A program made the translations under genes and the position numbers. Positions 14,894-21,417 of a DNA stretch of 30,031 nucleotides are shown in pieces. The notes beneath the pieces were generated by a model. That model ran no database searches and was not told the DNA's origin. It saw only the letters and a list, made by a program, of their open reading frames with translations. Origin of the DNA: a virus. The first letter of the stretch is position 1. Every line of letters starts with the position of its first letter. Location of the stretch: the IMG/VR virus record IMGVR_UViG_3300032293_000259, positions 1-30,031 of that record; one strand, written 5' to 3'.

Positions 14894-15295
14894 TTAGTTA
14901 CTTGCCTTACGAACCGTGATGCCATACTCACGCATCACACTGACACCGGGCGGCAGTCCATCGCCTTCATGGTCAGCCATGAACTGCTTGAAATTGCCCT
15001 GATGAATCCGCTTCTCAAAAAGTTCAAGTGCCTCGTTCTCAAGAATGAACTTCTTAAAGTTCTCCCAGTCTTGGCAGAAAAACCGCTCGTTGAGCTTACG
15101 CATGATCGTGCCGTGACTCGTCCGGATGCTATCTGCATTGATGTTGTTGCAGACCTCCAGAAGCAATGCCTCGATCTTCGCCATATCTTCTTTGAGCTTC
15201 GCATCCTTAGCTTCGTACTCGCGGAGGATTTTCTCACGCTCCGTACGGATATTCAGATACGCACTCACCACCTCTTCAGTATTGACGTTACTCAT
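14894..15295 (-). CDS. Conserved-looking phage coiled-coil protein, unknown function
   Basis: A 133-aa protein starting at ATG 15295 with GGAGG 7 nt upstream and overlapping the end of the SNF2 gene (stop at 15288). Residues ~10-50 form a charged coiled coil; the C-terminal part has SIRTSHGTIMRKLNERFF, DWENFKKFILENEALELFEKRIHQGNFKQF and LPPGVSVMREYGITVRK. I recognise this pattern from phage proteins encoded next to SNF2 helicases and ssDNA-binding proteins, but I know no established function. An accessory recombination or replication factor is plausible from its place in the operon. Confidence 0.75.
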   Translation of the reverse strand: MSNVNTEEVVSAYLNIRTEREKILREYEAKDAKLKEDMAKIEALLLEVCNNINADSIRTSHGTIMRKLNERFFCQDWENFKKFILENEALELFEKRIHQGNFKQFMADHEGDGLPPGVSVMREYGITVRKASN

Positions 15296-16880
15296 CATCA
15301 CCCTCCAGCTCTTGTTTGTACAGATCAACTAACTTCTGATGGCTATCGACTTTGCCTTGCAGCATGCGATACATCTTCCTCTCCACCTCACTGCCTTGCA
15401 GATGCACGACCGTCATGCTGTTCTTCTGACCCACACGGTCGATACGCGCTACGCACTGCAGATAAATCTCTACGCTCAGCACAGGTGACCAGAACACCAC
15501 CGTGTCAGCAGCAGTCAAAGTAATGCCATGCGCTGCCGATTGCGGCTGCACAACAAGGACACGCGGTTCTGGTTGCTTTTGAAAACGCTCGATGATCTGC
15601 GAACGCTCACGAGCGGAGACTGAACCTTGTATGACTTCATTACTGATACCTTGACTAGCTAAATACTTTGTCACTACCCCGATGGTGTGGAGGTAGTTCA
15701 CGAATACTACAACTTTGTTTAACGTCTCATCAAGCACTTCTTTCAGCGCGTTGAGACGCGGTGAGACATCGAACTCCAACGTCTGACCTTGGTCCGTGTA
15801 AACGGCACCACCGGAAATCTGTAGTAGTTTGTTGAGCGCAGACGCTGCGTTGACCGCGCTGATCTGCTCCCCTGCTGCCTCCACAAGTAGTTGAGATTTA
15901 AGGTTTTTGTAGAACTGCGTGACCTGTGGCGTCAGCGGTACATCGCGTGTCTGGTATACAACGTCCGGTAGATCAAGGCACTCCTTCTTGGTGTAGCGGA
16001 TGGCAGGCTGTAGCGCCTCATGCACCCGACGCTCCGAGTTAAGCCGGGGCTTCCACGTGAACCGGCTGACCTGATACATGACCATATCCTTCCACGCCCC
16101 GGTGAAGCGTGGAACACGGGTCGGTGCAACAAGTCGAGCAAGTCCGAACGCATCTATCGGTGACTGAGCAGCAGGTGTACCCGTCATCATCCAAAGTCGA
16201 GTGCTCGGTTTCAAAAGCTTCGCCAAGGTTTTCCATCGCTTAGTAGTCGCGCTCTTGTAGCTAGTCGCCTCATCTACGATGATCAAATCAAATCCGCCGT
16301 TGTAGATATCATCAAATACAGTCTGCACCCCATCGAAATTGATGACGATAAACTCATAGTCTGCGGCAATCAGCTTCTTACGCTTCGTCTGCGAGCCGTG
16401 CGCCACACCGCAAGTCCTGTGCATAGCCGTATTAAAGATGTCGTTCTGCCACGCCGAGTACATGATCGAGAGCGGACAGATGACCAAGACCCGCTTGACC
16501 AATCCGATGTTCATCAAATAGTCAGCAGCCCAGATTGCTGCGGAGGTCTTGCCTGTACCTGCTTCGTTGAAGCAGAACGCCCGTTGCCGGAGCGACAGGA
16601 ACGACGCTGTGTCCTTCTGGTGCTCGAACGGCTTGTAGATACCGGGCCAGTTGTAATCCCGTAGCATCGGGCACGGCACGTTCGGCATCGCCGAATCTGG
16701 AGCCTTCTCGTCTACAAAGGATGCCAAGGCCGACGCTTCTGGATAATCCCAGAACATCAACAGTTCTTTAGACTGCGTGTCGCCTGACAGCTCCTTACTT
16801 CTCGAAACATACGACAGCACTCTGTCCGCAACCGGTGCGGGCAACGTCATACGCAAAGCTTTGTTGTCAATGATGTCCAT
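15288..16880 (-). CDS. SNF2-family DNA helicase/translocase
   Basis: A 530-aa protein starting at ATG 16880 with AGGA 7 nt upstream; the upstream frame extension has no good start. Helicase motifs are in order: motif I EAGTGKT (106-112), motif II VDEAT (202-206), motif III MTGTPA (232-237), and motif VI CVARIDRVGQKN near residue 490. The family uses ATP to move along duplex DNA; phage members are thought to help replication, recombination or displacement of bound proteins. It lies directly downstream of the Cas4-like nuclease with a 174-nt gap, the largest gap inside the replication cluster. Confidence 0.93.
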   Translation of the reverse strand: MDIIDNKALRMTLPAPVADRVLSYVSRSKELSGDTQSKELLMFWDYPEASALASFVDEKAPDSAMPNVPCPMLRDYNWPGIYKPFEHQKDTASFLSLRQRAFCFNEAGTGKTSAAIWAADYLMNIGLVKRVLVICPLSIMYSAWQNDIFNTAMHRTCGVAHGSQTKRKKLIAADYEFIVINFDGVQTVFDDIYNGGFDLIIVDEATSYKSATTKRWKTLAKLLKPSTRLWMMTGTPAAQSPIDAFGLARLVAPTRVPRFTGAWKDMVMYQVSRFTWKPRLNSERRVHEALQPAIRYTKKECLDLPDVVYQTRDVPLTPQVTQFYKNLKSQLLVEAAGEQISAVNAASALNKLLQISGGAVYTDQGQTLEFDVSPRLNALKEVLDETLNKVVVFVNYLHTIGVVTKYLASQGISNEVIQGSVSARERSQIIERFQKQPEPRVLVVQPQSAAHGITLTAADTVVFWSPVLSVEIYLQCVARIDRVGQKNSMTVVHLQGSEVERKMYRMLQGKVDSHQKLVDLYKQELEGDDE

Positions 16881-17054
16881 AAGTTTTCCTATAAAACCCC
16901 TTACGGGGGTCAGTCGGCCAAGACTCGCTGCAAAAATGAGGTGAATACAATGATCTTGGCAGACATGGTTACGCGCCGTTAGGTGAGCGCAGAAGAGTCG
17001 GGAGGTGAACACGCCTCTTCCATTCCTACACACTCATGCCTTGTGCGGAATACT
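16881..17054 (-). other. 174-nt gap before the SNF2 gene with a short GUAA-capped hairpin
   Basis: No credible gene is seen: the longest ATG-led frames on the - strand are 10, 14 and 18 codons. At 16897-16909 the - strand reads CCCCC-GTAA-GGGG followed by TTTTAT, a 4-bp GC stem with a GNRA-type loop and short U-run, directly before the SNF2 ribosome site. It could be a weak terminator or attenuator. The gap may also hold a promoter, but none is clear. Confidence 0.35.
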
Positions 17055-17708
17055 TCATCGCTCCTTGTAAAACTCACAGGTTGCTACAGGGCACCACCCG
17101 CAGAGCGGTGTCGGCGTGGCGGGCCACAGATCACGTTCATAGGCGGTGCTCAACCGGATGGTCGGTGCATCGAACGCTGCCCATAGTCGCGGGATGTCGT
17201 CCCGCTTGTAGTCCTCGAAGACGAACGCATCGTGTGCAACGAAGAGCAACGCACCCTTGATACGCTCGACCTCGGGGAAGATGGCGTAGATCATCAGCCC
17301 CATCAGTTTCAACTGACGCGGGTCAGGGTAGCGTGCGCTACCCGTCTTGTAGTCCACGATGTAAGCCATGTCGCCGTCGATGACCACGAGGTCCGCGATG
17401 CCCCGCACCCAATAGTCCGGGCTATTAAAGTCACATGGCTGCCTGTTGCTATCGAGCGCCATCTCGAACTCGGGGTACTTGTCGCCGGGCATAGCGAGGA
17501 GCGGATCGACAAACTTCGCGAACCGTGCGTAGTTCTTAACAAGAGGAGTGCCGTCCCGCACGTAGTCCTCAAGCGCCTTATGCACTTCCTTACCGTATCG
17601 GATTTGCTCGGTCTCTTTGATGGCAAAATTCCGCCGGACCTTGACCTCGTGGTATTGACGAGGGCAATTCAGGAACTGCTTCAAGCCGCTGAAGGACCAC
17701 TTAATCAT
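17055..17708 (-). CDS. Cas4/RecB-like PD-(D/E)XK nuclease with Fe-S cysteines
   Basis: A 217-aa protein starting at ATG 17708, overlapping the previous stop (ATGA). The nuclease core is visible: RGIAD (Asp106), VDYKTG (Asp119, Lys121) and the downstream Gln of motif QLKLM (Gln132). One N-terminal cysteine (Cys15, in NCPRQY) and three near the C-terminus (Cys203, Cys206, Cys211, in CGWCPVATC) make the four-cysteine pattern that holds a 4Fe-4S cluster in Cas4 and AddB-type nucleases. Expected role: DNA end processing in phage recombination or replication. No CRISPR array or cas gene is nearby, so a CRISPR role is not supported. Confidence 0.88.
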   Translation of the reverse strand: MIKWSFSGLKQFLNCPRQYHEVKVRRNFAIKETEQIRYGKEVHKALEDYVRDGTPLVKNYARFAKFVDPLLAMPGDKYPEFEMALDSNRQPCDFNSPDYWVRGIADLVVIDGDMAYIVDYKTGSARYPDPRQLKLMGLMIYAIFPEVERIKGALLFVAHDAFVFEDYKRDDIPRLWAAFDAPTIRLSTAYERDLWPATPTPLCGWCPVATCEFYKER

Positions 17709-17905
17709 CGAGACGCAACCGTAGACTTCGACAATTGGAACCACTCACGATACTGCTTACCATCATAAAAGCGCGTCCAAATATCTCCGTGCTCATCAAG
17801 CGCAAACAAAGTCAGATGCTTGTGCTTAGGGCCGCCATACGGGTCGTTGTAATACGCTTCGGCGCTAGTGATCTGAACAAACTTGGGGGCTTTATTTTCA
17901 TTCAT
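17705..17905 (-). CDS. Small phage protein, unknown function
   Basis: A 66-aa protein starting at ATG 17905, one base after the stop of the polymerase C-terminal gene; GGAG lies 9 nt upstream. Longer in-frame starts would run into that gene. The C-terminal half reads LTLFALDEHGDIWTRFYDGKQYREWFQLS, a beta-rich pattern with a repeated W..F/W spacing often seen in small phage proteins. No function can be assigned. It is coupled by ATGA overlap to the Cas4-like nuclease. Confidence 0.65.
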   Translation of the reverse strand: MNENKAPKFVQITSAEAYYNDPYGGPKHKHLTLFALDEHGDIWTRFYDGKQYREWFQLSKSTVASR

Positions 17906-17906
17906 G

Positions 17907-18884
17907 TTAGCAATCTCCATAAGATTCTCCATATTTAGCCTCACAGGCCACGGGTAGACCTGCCGCCCATACAGGGGGTGCAGACATGATCTTCGTTACC
18001 TTGTCCAACACGGGGGTGATGTCTCCCTTCTTCACTACAACCACAGCCGCGTCATGCACAGTCAAGACAGGACGCAGCCCCTGCTTCGACAACTCTAGCA
18101 TCTGTTCCCCGACTATGATACGAGCGAGGGCTTGGACCACGTTCTCAACAACGGCTCCGCCCCACAAGGACTGGACCCCCTTGCGCGAGGTGTAGATAAA
18201 GCCCTTCTCGCCGCGCTGCAACTTCGGGTATTTGATGTACAGACCATTCGGCAAGCGCAGACCCTGCGGGGTGACCCATACGCATTTATGCATGCCAAGC
18301 GAATATTCTTTGGACCCAGACGGCCACGCCATCAGGTGACTGAGGGCTAAGTCACACTCCCGCCAGAGCGCAGGGATCTTGTCGTTCTCCTGCCGGTAAA
18401 GATCGACAATGCGTTTGCATTCCGCTTCAGGCAGGTCTGCACCGGGGGGCTGTGTCTTGAGGGTATGCTGCAACTTCTTAGCACCCGTGCCGTACCCAAG
18501 ACTCAAAACCGAACATTTTCCGATGAAGCGAAGGTCTGGGGTCGCCTTACTCACCGGCCTCCTAAATACCTTTTCAGCAAAAATCGAATACACGTCCTCG
18601 TTGTTGGCGAACTGCTTGACCACATCGTTTTGTCCTGCAAGCCACGCCAAGACACGCGCCTCGATCTGTGATGAGTCGCAGTTGATGACGTAGTGACCTG
18701 CCGGGGCCATGATGGCGTTCTTCAACGCCTTCTTTTTCTTGTCACGGCTCGGTAAATTCTGGAGGTTTACGGAGTCAGAATTGTGTACGAGTTTTCCATT
18801 CGCAACGAACCGGTGGCGCGGACCACAATCAACAATGTCATAAACTGGAACGAGCATACTTTTTCCTTTGAATAATTTCGTCAT
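17907..18884 (-). CDS. Family A DNA polymerase, C-terminal half, preceded by split-intein C-segment
   Basis: From ATG 18884 this encodes 325 aa. Residues 1-35 form an intein C-segment: VYDIVDCGPRHRFVANG (block F) and KLVHN (block G, terminal His-Asn), followed by Ser as the +1 extein residue. The extein then runs SDSVNLQNLPSR, the conserved family A region just before motif A, and continues with motif A (CDSSQIEAR, catalytic Asp), motif B (KCSVLSLGYGTG) and motif C (VLTVHDAAV). Motif C reads HDA where most family A enzymes have HDE. An ATG at 18857 has a better ribosome site (AAAGGA, 6 nt) but would leave only a 26-aa C-segment. It is useless as a polymerase without the N-terminal half, so trans-splicing is expected. 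Confidence 0.93.
   Translation of the reverse strand: MTKLFKGKSMLVPVYDIVDCGPRHRFVANGKLVHNSDSVNLQNLPSRDKKKKALKNAIMAPAGHYVINCDSSQIEARVLAWLAGQNDVVKQFANNEDVYSIFAEKVFRRPVSKATPDLRFIGKCSVLSLGYGTGAKKLQHTLKTQPPGADLPEAECKRIVDLYRQENDKIPALWRECDLALSHLMAWPSGSKEYSLGMHKCVWVTPQGLRLPNGLYIKYPKLQRGEKGFIYTSRKGVQSLWGGAVVENVVQALARIIVGEQMLELSKQGLRPVLTVHDAAVVVVKKGDITPVLDKVTKIMSAPPVWAAGLPVACEAKYGESYGDC
18780..18884 (-). other. Split-intein C-segment (IntC)
   Basis: About 35 residues, the usual length of a natural split-intein C-fragment. It contains block F (VYDIV...HRF) and ends in HN, with the splice junction before Ser (codon 18777-18779). Asn is encoded at 18780-18782. Confidence 0.88.
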
Positions 18885-19602
18885 CGGATGCGCCCTGCAC
18901 AATCCAAAGCCGTATAGTTTCGTAAGTTAAGTCTGGACGTAAATTTTTGATCCGTCTTATTCGCTCACCATTTTTAGTCCGCTTGTAAGCACGCTTGTTC
19001 CTAGCCTGCTCGGAACGTGATGCCCACCGTAAATTGCCCGGTTCGTAATGCCGATCATTATCAACCCTATCAAGACTATGAAATGGGGATGGGCGAACAC
19101 CTAAATTGTCTAACGCCCATTCAGCAAATGCCCGCACACCGGGGAACTTGAATTCGATCCCCCGCCCGCCATAATTTAAAAACCCCAAACTGTTTGGGTT
19201 AGTGCAGCGTTGTTTTGCACCTGCACCAGTACTCAACACTGTTTTTAAATCTACTCCGTATTTAACTCGATAAGGATCAACACGGGTCGTCAACTTTATT
19301 GCTGCTGCTATAGATGCTTTTTTCGCTATTCGCACGCGGTCTTCAACCGGAATTGCCGCCATTTTTAATTTAGATGCACATGATCGACAGCAGCGGCTTT
19401 TACCGTCTAGCAACTCCCGAACACGAACCTCACTCCGCTTCCCGCACTTACACTCACACAGAATCTTCTGTTTGGTGGTTGTAAAAGTGCTGCTGAGCGG
19501 TGTCCACATCACGTTCTTCAGGGCTTCTTGCAACTTCAATTGCGTGATTTCCCTGCATCGCTTCTCGTAGGCTAATCTGTCCGGCGTCTGTATATACGGC
19601 AT
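18838..19602 (-). CDS. HNH homing endonuclease nested between the two halves of the polymerase gene
   Basis: A 254-aa protein from ATG 19602 (AGGGA 9 nt upstream); an ATG at 19509 would give 223 aa and avoid most overlap with the intein N-segment, and the usual start of the family (WTPLS..., then CECKCGKR) favours it. A cysteine ribbon (C..C.CG ... CCRSC) is followed by NYGGRGIEF and the HNH core FHSLDRVDNDRHYEPGNLRWASRSEQARNK. This is the pattern of free-standing phage HNH enzymes, not the LAGLIDADG type. It is in a frame different from both polymerase halves and overlaps each. Likely role: cutting a polymerase allele without the insertion, so that the element spreads. Confidence 0.88.
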   Translation of the reverse strand: MPYIQTPDRLAYEKRCREITQLKLQEALKNVMWTPLSSTFTTTKQKILCECKCGKRSEVRVRELLDGKSRCCRSCASKLKMAAIPVEDRVRIAKKASIAAAIKLTTRVDPYRVKYGVDLKTVLSTGAGAKQRCTNPNSLGFLNYGGRGIEFKFPGVRAFAEWALDNLGVRPSPFHSLDRVDNDRHYEPGNLRWASRSEQARNKRAYKRTKNGERIRRIKNLRPDLTYETIRLWIVQGASDDEIIQRKKYARSSL

Positions 19603-19789
19603 GATCTTCGGTCCCTGTTATCCCGTCCCACGTAATGACTTCAGCAAATCCACTGAACTTGACACCCTTGTGAGGCACAAATTCTGCTCCGTCCCACACC
19701 AAGTCGTCAGCGAGTACGTCAACAATCCGCTTCTGTACTACGCCGGTATCAGGATGATAGACAAATACCAAAGTACCGTCAACTAAACA
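19454..19789 (-). other. Split-intein N-segment (IntN)
   Basis: 111 residues from Cys1 (codon 19787-19789) to the stop. Block A is CLVDGTLVFV; block B is GTEDHAVYT with the TxxH pattern. The core probably ends near NHAIEVARS, leaving a ~20-residue tail. The segment is fused directly to the extein ending GRWSG. No endonuclease domain and no C-terminal splicing block are in this frame. Confidence 0.9.
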
Positions 19790-20779
19790 ACCGCTCCACC
19801 GGCCTGTGTGTGCGCCGTAATACTTCAGCGGGATGGGCAGCAACCCCTTGTTCCTAGCACCGATGCCGATGAACCGCTCGACACGCGACTCCTCGATGGT
19901 GGACTTAGTACCCAGACGCACCGCACAAAGGTGTTGCACGACGGGGTTATCGTGTTCCGATAACTCGATGAAACCTTCATCGTTCTTGGCAAGGGCATAG
20001 GTCTCCTTGCCCGTGGTCAGGCTCGTCTTCATGGGCGGCTCGATACCGAACGAGCGCAGCACCTCAGCGAACTGCGGATTGCTTGCCAACTTGGCGCGGA
20101 CTTCTTCCTCTGTACCAACCTTCAGCACGTCCATGAGGCTACGCAAGAGCGTGGCCTTTTCATGCCTGATCTCATCCAAGCGGTCTACGAGCAGCGCGTC
20201 GTTGATACGCAGCACGGGTTGGGTGTACATACGCAGAGTCATGTCAATCAGGTCAAGCTCGTTCGACGGGAAGCCCTCGTCCAGAAGCGCAGCAAACAAC
20301 TTGAAGGTCAGCTCCACGTCGTTGATGCAGTATGCACCGTAACGCGCCAAGTCTTCTGGCGTGAAGTCCTTGCGGTACTTGCCCAGAGCGTTGATGACCT
20401 CGGTACCCTTCTCGCCCAACTGATACCGCTCAGCCAGAGCCTTGAGAGAGCCACCCGCATCCACGCCATGAATGGCACGGGCCATGCACAGCGTATCGAA
20501 ATACTTAGCCGGGACGATGCCGAACGTGAACGCCAAGATAGCCCCATCAAAGAGCATGTTATGGCAGAGCAGGGCGCTGTTCGCCCAGTCGATCTTGTCG
20601 AGATACGCCTTGATCTCAGCGTGAGTACCGCTGAACCACTCAGGCTCACCATCGTCAATCTTTACGCCGACACCGATGACCTCAAAGCGCGGGTCACGGA
20701 TGTACTCCTCCGTTGTAAGATTTTTTAAACTATATTTTTGATCATAATAAGTTTCTAGGTCCACAGTCACAAAACTCAT
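19454..20779 (-). CDS. Family A DNA polymerase, N-terminal half (3'-5' exonuclease) fused to split-intein N-segment
   Basis: A 441-aa protein. Residues 1-330 are extein and 331-441 the intein N-segment. The extein has a complete proofreading exonuclease: Exo I VDLET (Asp7, Glu9), Exo II CHNMLFDG (Asp78) and Exo III YCINDVELT (Tyr150, Asp154). It continues to IPLKYYGAHTGRWSG, the family A motif that in uninterrupted enzymes leads straight into SDxxNLQN. No polymerase catalytic motif is present here; these lie in the downstream half gene. ATG 20779 has GGAGG 7 nt upstream and overlaps the previous stop (ATGA). Joined to the other extein it would give a ~620-aa polymerase, a normal length for phage family A enzymes without a 5' nuclease domain. 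Confidence 0.95.
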   Translation of the reverse strand: MSFVTVDLETYYDQKYSLKNLTTEEYIRDPRFEVIGVGVKIDDGEPEWFSGTHAEIKAYLDKIDWANSALLCHNMLFDGAILAFTFGIVPAKYFDTLCMARAIHGVDAGGSLKALAERYQLGEKGTEVINALGKYRKDFTPEDLARYGAYCINDVELTFKLFAALLDEGFPSNELDLIDMTLRMYTQPVLRINDALLVDRLDEIRHEKATLLRSLMDVLKVGTEEEVRAKLASNPQFAEVLRSFGIEPPMKTSLTTGKETYALAKNDEGFIELSEHDNPVVQHLCAVRLGTKSTIEESRVERFIGIGARNKGLLPIPLKYYGAHTGRWSGCLVDGTLVFVYHPDTGVVQKRIVDVLADDLVWDGAEFVPHKGVKFSGFAEVITWDGITGTEDHAVYTDAGQISLREAMQGNHAIEVARSPEERDVDTAQQHFYNHQTEDSV

Positions 20780-20988
20780 AACACCACCTCCTCAAATTTA
20801 CCAAACCAAGATGAACCGTCGTGGGTCCACTGCACAGTCAGGATCTGATCTGACTCCTTCACGGCTCCTGCAATTACCCCATAGCAATGTCCGCACCGCA
20901 CCCTCCATCCGACGGTGCCACACCGTGCGTCTATCGCCGCGCAGTTTGATTCAAAGTCATCGAGGAAAATCTTGTGCTTGCAGGTCAC
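20776..20988 (-). CDS. Small cysteine-containing phage protein, unknown function
   Basis: A 70-aa protein whose likely start is GTG 20988, overlapping the previous stop (GTGA) with AGGA 7 nt upstream. A longer frame from GTG 21009 has a poorer ribosome site and would overlap the zinc-finger gene by 25 nt. Cysteines at TCKH, NCAA, ARC and RCGHC could bind zinc. It ends with WTHDGSSWFGKFEEVVL. It is coupled to the polymerase gene by an ATGA overlap. Confidence 0.6.
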   Translation of the reverse strand: MTCKHKIFLDDFESNCAAIDARCGTVGWRVRCGHCYGVIAGAVKESDQILTVQWTHDGSSWFGKFEEVVL

Positions 20989-21158
20989 GGCTTGATCCTG
21001 TTTATCCACTTCCCATCAATCTCGACGTAGCCTCGGGCTATCAGTCCTTCTACGGTCCTGCACCCGATACCTTTTAACTTGTGTGCACGAAACGATTCGG
21101 GGTTGGCGAACACCCGCTTGCACTCAGCGCACCTTTTTACCTTTTTCGGACCTAGCAT
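20985..21158 (-). CDS. 57-aa putative zinc-finger protein
   Basis: A short gene starting at ATG 21158 with a strong GGAGG 6 nt upstream. The protein has CAEC at residues 10-13, then FRAHKLKGIGC with His and Cys ligands, making a C2HC-like finger, followed by ARGYVEIDGKWINRIKP. It probably binds nucleic acid. It overlaps the preceding gene by 35 nt and its stop overlaps the next GTG start. Evidence is the ribosome site, the ligand pattern and the coupling. Confidence 0.65.
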   Translation of the reverse strand: MLGPKKVKRCAECKRVFANPESFRAHKLKGIGCRTVEGLIARGYVEIDGKWINRIKP

Positions 21159-21417
21159 TTTTCACCTCCACTTCCATTCGCTTTCTCCACCCTACATCCC
21201 GCGCAAACTCCCATGCAATGCACCACAGTTCGTAGTAACACCCGCCAAGCGGGAACCTAAATCCAAGTTCATCCTTCGGGAACCCATGGTCTCTCAAGTT
21301 TTTACCGTGACGGCTCCGTATAAGCCTGTCCCATGCCTTTTCCCGGTCAAGGTCGGCTATCGGGTATCGGACGCAATCCTCAACGGACTTTGCTTTGAGC
21401 CTTACTGCCTTTGCCAT
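21124..21417 (-). CDS. Small basic phage protein, unknown function
   Basis: A 97-aa basic protein starting at ATG 21417 with GGAG 7 nt upstream. It reads LGGCYYELWCIAWEFARDVGW near residue 57, and the C-terminus is highly basic (KNARSEKGKKVR), suggesting nucleic-acid contact. No family is recognised. It overlaps both neighbours by 35-38 nt, a normal pattern in this operon. Confidence 0.6.
   Translation of the reverse strand: MAKAVRLKAKSVEDCVRYPIADLDREKAWDRLIRSRHGKNLRDHGFPKDELGFRFPLGGCYYELWCIAWEFARDVGWRKRMEVEVKNARSEKGKKVR

Follow-up and report, generated by a model that had tools for sequence, protein, structure and literature searches.

A putative mobile split-intein cassette with an overlapping HNH endonuclease gene in the family A DNA polymerase gene of uncultured phages

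A polymerase gene divided among three reading frames

The 30,031-base IMG/VR virus record IMGVR_UViG_3300032293_000259 (the window, by which we mean the whole stretch of DNA analysed) carries on its minus strand a family A DNA polymerase (PolA) gene that is broken into two halves. The first half (the N-extein) runs into an N-terminal intein fragment (IntN), the second (the C-extein) is preceded by a C-terminal intein fragment (IntC), and an HNH endonuclease gene lies between them (Table 1). The three open reading frames (ORFs) occupy three different frames, and re-analysis found all of the coordinates given for them in an original prediction, made by a model from the DNA letters alone, to be correct. 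The N-extein was identified by its Pfam exonuclease-domain match (PF01612, 1.4e-8), its match to phrog_17 and its alignment to residues 1-330 of intact relatives, and the C-extein by its match to DNA_pol_A (PF00476, 2.4e-28); these domains and relatives bear out the predicted order of a half ending in GRWSG followed by IntN, and of IntC followed by the other polymerase half. The joined exteins amount to 620 amino acids (aa), in agreement with the predicted product of about that size. The break falls after residue 330 (GRWSG / SDSVNLQNLP), before motif A of family A polymerases. In the intact relatives (L002 and L003, with 86-90% aa identity, and about 70 others), both polymerase stretches adjoin in one frame, and because these relatives run continuously across residues 330/331, the break point is exact. 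Aligning the joined exteins with intact polymerases had been proposed together with the prediction; the halves abut in one frame, and the claim that the break lies within the conserved stretch before motif A holds, the empty-site relatives being continuous there. The spliced junction peptide is predicted to read GRWSGSDSVNLQ within the 620-aa polymerase.

The HNH protein contains zinc-finger Cys pairs and a DRxDN...N.RW core and matches PHROG HNH endonuclease families (7e-31). Its start codon (ATG, 19600-19602) overlaps the block-B His codon CAT of IntN (19601-19603), using the last two bases of that codon and the following G (CAT-G). For the C-terminal part, a start at 18857 is most likely, rather than at 18902. 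The gene overlaps were not seen in the original prediction, nor were the large family of mobile cassettes and the sister inteins with an HNH gene hidden out of frame that are described below.

Table 1. Features of the split polymerase locus, in positions of the window
Feature	Position	Strand	Length	Remarks
ORF 1: N-extein + IntN	20779-19454	-	441 aa	
ORF 2: HNH endonuclease	19602-18838	-	254 aa	
ORF 3: IntC + C-extein	18902-17907 (from TTG) or 18857-17907 (from conserved ATG)	-		
N-extein	19790..20779	-	330 aa	3'-5' exonuclease domain, then the start of the family A polymerase domain; C-terminal GRWSG
IntN	19457..19789	-	111 aa	N-terminal intein fragment; Cys1 and block B TEDH; stop codon 19454-19456
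HNH gene	18838..19602	-	254 aa plus stop	homing-type; +1 frame relative to IntN
IntN/HNH overlap	19454..19602	-	149 nt	
Shine-Dalgarno-like AAAGG for IntC	18865..18869	-		within HNH coding sequence
HNH end/IntC start overlap	18838..18857	-	20 nt	both frames conserved
IntC	18780..18857	-	26 aa	C-terminal intein fragment MLVPVYDIVDCGPRHRFVANGKLVHN; blocks F and G; third frame
C-extein	17907..18779	-	290 aa plus stop	polymerase fingers/palm; first residue is the +1 nucleophile Ser (SDSVNLQNLPSR)

Two further features were noted around the C-extein. Polymerase motif C, encoded within 17907-18779, reads VHDAA instead of the usual HDE, as it does in L056. A gene for an SNF2-type helicase (15288-17033) adjoins the polymerase gene, and the SNF2-type helicase of L253 holds an intein of the hidden-HNH class.

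Recurrence, selection and mobility of the cassette

The same site is occupied in more than 50 other IMG/VR contigs, found by searches with the HNH protein and IntN. In nearly all carriers the HNH gene lies at +1 and IntC at +2 relative to IntN, and the cassette measures 989-1031 nucleotides (nt), a length of 2 modulo 3. In one subgroup (L223-L233), IntC is back in the frame of IntN, yet 9-22 stops lie between the two, so these genes are also split. Polymerase identity of the carriers to the window falls as low as about 35-47%, and the arrangement is therefore old. No continuous frame joins the halves: across the HNH gene of the window, the IntN frame holds 20 stops, against 20.3 expected from synonymous shuffles, and with stops at chance level this frame is therefore neither kept open nor translated through the HNH gene. 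The arrangement is not an assembly error.

The residues needed for splicing are conserved throughout. Among the 37 non-redundant copies on which all conservation counts for the split class are based, every one keeps Cys1, TxxH and the His-Asn terminus; the +1 residue is always Ser (34 copies) or Cys (three), and in empty relatives it is S, T, M, L, A or Q. IntN and IntC add up to 137 aa (111 + 26), close to the 139 aa of a continuous mini-intein in Moraxella phage Mcat21, and therefore no piece of the intein is missing. The profile of the window IntN aligns with that of the sister inteins at 99.4% (hhalign), and sister inteins match solved inteins by sequence. For one of them, the helicase intein L173 (Methylobacterium platani), a HINT fold is predicted in which both ends exceed a pLDDT (predicted local distance difference test) of 94 and the top PDB matches are inteins; the fold was examined in this sister intein, to whose family the window is linked through the IntN profile match. 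The two fragments would thus be competent for splicing, as judged from these sequence comparisons. In L196 (4001-4407), the HNH gene is reduced to an N-terminal remnant and the polymerase gene is still split, the IntN stop TAG overlapping the Shine-Dalgarno (SD) motif of IntC, which argues that the split state is itself functional, independent of the HNH frame.

All three frames are under selection. Among seven equal-length copies, the stretch occupied by IntN alone varies most at the third IntN codon position (0.53 versus 0.17-0.20). Where the IntN/HNH overlap begins, variability is low at every codon position (0.11-0.21), and through the remainder of that overlap and the HNH-only part the third position of the HNH frame leads (0.61). 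Within the HNH/IntC overlap, two of the three codon positions have a variability below 0.05, and past it the third position of IntC leads (0.62). These handovers coincide with the borders predicted from the ORFs. The start signals are also conserved. Of the 37 copies, 34 have a start codon (ATG in 32) at one fixed point, precisely 26 codons from the IntC end, compared with 5 of 40 continuous sister inteins, and an SD motif lies 4-13 nt upstream of it in 32 of these 34, against a background of 12%; when a start with an SD motif is allowed anywhere 22-40 codons from the intein end, the figures are 35/37 for split and 3/40 for continuous forms. The HNH ATG is conserved in 28/37 copies and is of the CATG type, drawn from the block-B His codon, in 25/37. 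A start within the overlap is supported by the AlphaFold (AF2) model of the HNH protein (pLDDT 89.7), because the model makes use of an N-terminal helix encoded there. Together, the many contigs, the empty-site relatives, the codon-position analysis and the conserved start and SD signals uphold the central claim of the original prediction, a split intein or fractured gene with an HNH gene between its halves.

The cassette is also mobile. In the polymerase tree, the window groups as sister of the empty L003 (support 100), and the carriers L082 and L078 stand elsewhere among empty relatives; this tree holds empty relatives near the window only, since the window's polymerase was the query that retrieved them. 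The HNH tree is discordant with this, uniting the window, L082 and L078 in one clade (support 99). L082 and L078 share 90-97% nt identity in the cassette and 52-80% around it. The flanks of the window and L003 are about 99% identical, with 97-100% at -240 to -61 and 100% at +31 to +150, and the bins adjoining the insertion fall to 93/87% and 73% (87/73% in the 30 nt on either side), with the +1 residue changing from Leu in L003 to Ser in the window. Such a dip is the trace that recent homing with co-conversion of the immediate flanks would be expected to leave.

Continuous relatives and the origin of the split form

The same intein family occupies other PolA sites (near C-extein residues 40, 88-98, 220 and 252) and ResIII/SNF2 helicases, in viral contigs, bacterial contigs and the deposited Streptococcus phage Javan255. 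In these sister inteins a single frame covers IntN and IntC, and they enclose a same-family HNH gene that is read mostly in the +1 and otherwise in the +2 frame. Forty non-redundant sister inteins contain no stops in the splicing frame, against 268 expected from synonymous shuffles of the HNH gene; zero stops define this class, and what is informative is the expectation of 268, the third-frame control (397 stops versus 372 expected) and the HNH relatives outside inteins, which have stops in the equivalent frame in 62/64 cases. The probability of zero stops at a single locus is mostly 0.001 or less, and the class is therefore not a chance tail. Therefore, the sister inteins are continuous inteins in which a nonsense linker is tolerated and the endonuclease is encoded in a second frame. 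In the L173 model, residues 1-90 and 230-258 are predicted with confidence, and the overprinted stretch between them is disordered. We found no description of a hidden HNH inside an intein in the literature searched, the coverage of which was incomplete.

Some carriers combine both classes, with a split intein at the window's site (site 1) and a second, continuous hidden-HNH intein elsewhere in the same polymerase (L056:3472-4359, L092:1797-2696, L079:5097-5939 and L080:3249-4100). The Javan255 polymerase (L087; MK448719.1, 2504-3430) is annotated as 'DNA polymerase I' and has an unannotated intein with an HNH in the +1 frame. Two HNH genes without a recognised intein (L127 and L147) keep the intein-equivalent register open and may be diverged inteins or insertions like the ShiLan domain discussed below. 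Further fractures also occur in the family: L249 is fractured at another PolA site, with an HNH; in L234:4001-5230 (also L235 and L240), a GIY-YIG-like gene, recognised by eye, replaces the HNH between the intein parts of a fractured PolA site; and in L241:3292-3892 and L212:4001-5363 the split intein at site 1 holds other small ORFs where the HNH would be, with no C-half found in L212 up to the contig end.

This one family spans candidate stages in the origin of natural split inteins: a mini-intein, an intein with a hidden out-of-frame HNH, a split form whose HNH overlaps both halves, and a split form that has lost most of its HNH. In a tree of the intein ends, the split forms fall mostly into one group near the continuous hidden-HNH inteins; because the columns are few, the support is modest and the root is unknown, the direction from continuous to split is suggested as a working hypothesis. 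We see about even chances that an HNH gene invaded a mini-intein out of frame, with the splicing frame at first open, as in the overprinted-endonuclease inteins of phage polymerases and helicases, that closure of this frame together with a ribosome site for the C-terminal part made a natural split intein, and that the window cassette exemplifies this and now spreads as one piece.

Trans-splicing, rival explanations and known systems

We consider it very probable that a mobile three-gene cassette has split this phage polymerase gene, that the halves rejoin by trans-splicing and that the HNH endonuclease drives homing. One mRNA with three starts would yield PolA-N fused to IntN, the HNH endonuclease, and IntC fused to PolA-C; IntN and IntC would associate as a single HINT fold, and trans-splicing would then produce the intact 620-aa polymerase. 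In co-infecting phages whose polymerase gene is intact, the HNH endonuclease would cut that gene at the insertion site or close to it, and repair would copy the entire cassette into the cut gene. Translation of each piece, trans-splicing activity and target cleavage are all predicted from sequence, and we presume HNH catalysis from family membership.

Several results weigh against this interpretation. The search of intein models proposed with the original prediction gave a mixed outcome, in that standard Pfam and NCBIfam intein models miss the joined IntN and IntC, and the profile comparison with the sister inteins succeeded. The miss reflects a divergent family and concerns a detection tool, not a defining chemical feature. 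IntN alone matched no solved intein among PDB sequences, giving only chance matches to fluorescent proteins, so that the link from the window to solved inteins passes through the sister family. The HNH protein lacks the textbook first His (DRxDN), and the SD of its gene is weak. Sequence and fold searches of the PDB with the HNH protein gave no match. In addition, the fractured form was absent from 50,697 deposited phage records searched with tblastn, and all evidence is therefore metagenomic; a DNA similarity search of the locus against deposited phages also gave no match.

Of the rival explanations, that sequencing or assembly indels disrupted a normal intein whose HNH domain lies in frame, an alternative raised with the original prediction itself, would suit a single metagenomic contig whose frames differ by +1 and +1, but it is refuted by the comparative data and has practically no probability left: independently assembled contigs, more than 50 of them, show identical offsets (HNH always +1, IntC almost always +2) at the lengths given above, IntC has its own conserved start and SD, and L223-L233 stand at a third offset and are still split. 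A somewhat better, though still very poor, prospect is that programmed +1 frameshifts fuse IntN, HNH and IntC into a single cis-splicing polypeptide. Overlaps of 149 and 20-64 nt between the open frames would in principle allow such shifts; however, the IntC start and SD are conserved in the split class only, the direction of the shift into IntC differs in L223-L233, and in L196, which has lost most of its HNH, the open frames of IntN and IntC barely overlap.

That the halves are separate subunits that function without splicing, the intein parts being dead or a mere dimerisation device, has precedent in the naturally split polymerase subunits of some phages and is slightly less probable still than frameshifting. 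The splicing residues are invariant, including a +1 nucleophile not maintained in empty relatives, and this explanation is disfavoured because a dead device would not retain Cys1, His and Asn. A self-splicing intron, suggested by the frequency of HNH endonucleases in phage group I introns, has a vanishingly small probability, as there is no Rfam match at E values up to 1 in 17500-21200 and the insertion has coding, intein-like sequence at both ends. If the halves are rejoined by trans-splicing, as we favour, a replication enzyme of more than 50 uncultured phages seems to depend on this process. Standard intein models miss this family, and hidden endonucleases and split genes are therefore likely under-annotated. 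Split inteins with a 26-aa C-terminal part may also be useful as tools.

The arrangement belongs to a known kind, the fractured gene. Fractured genes with split inteins were reportedly described by Dassa and co-workers in 2009 (NAR, Nucleic Acids Research), and half of the original loci are said to have had Vsr-like enzymes. Those loci reportedly resemble the window in involving a DNA-synthesis enzyme in a phage context, with half genes that each carry half an intein and an endonuclease gene between; the window differs in its HNH endonuclease, its three overlapping genes and the interruption of a family A polymerase before motif A, and its family differs in being recently mobile and in including continuous hidden-HNH forms. 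Naturally split inteins (Npu DnaE, gp41-1 and NrdJ-1; 4qfq, 6qaz, 8ubs) likewise have an IntN of about 100 aa with Cys1 and block B and a short IntC with blocks F and G, and they share the HINT fold with the sister family. Their IntC is usually 35-40 aa long, whereas that of the window has only 26 aa, and the window intein falls below standard intein hidden Markov model (HMM) thresholds and retains an overlapping endonuclease gene.

The mini-intein of Moraxella phages Mcat20/21 (L086) has the flanking motif AHTGR(Y/W)xG / S, a length of 139 aa and alignable blocks; unlike the window intein, it is continuous, lacks an endonuclease and lies in a chimeric gene that retains no more than about 20 aa of polymerase. 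By eye, this gene in Mcat21 (L086:2291-3223) comprises a ThyX-like start, the polymerase piece, the mini-intein and a DUF3310-like tail. The ShiLan domain (PMC11855218), an insertion in a phage methylase, resembles the window in its HNH, which is hidden in a frame other than that of the host gene, in its mobility and in its conserved insertion spot. ShiLan leaves its host frame open and lacks any splicing domain, whereas in the window the HNH sits within a complete intein and the host frame is closed, which splits the gene. Sister inteins have splicing domains together with a host frame that stays open, so that a ShiLan-type open frame through the HNH is found in about 40 of them and not in the window, with its 20 stops. 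Compared with these systems, what is new is an HNH rather than a Vsr-like endonuclease, three genes that overlap, one of them starting within the catalytic His codon, a family A polymerase interrupted at the residue-330 site, evidence of recent mobility, and a sister class of continuous inteins.
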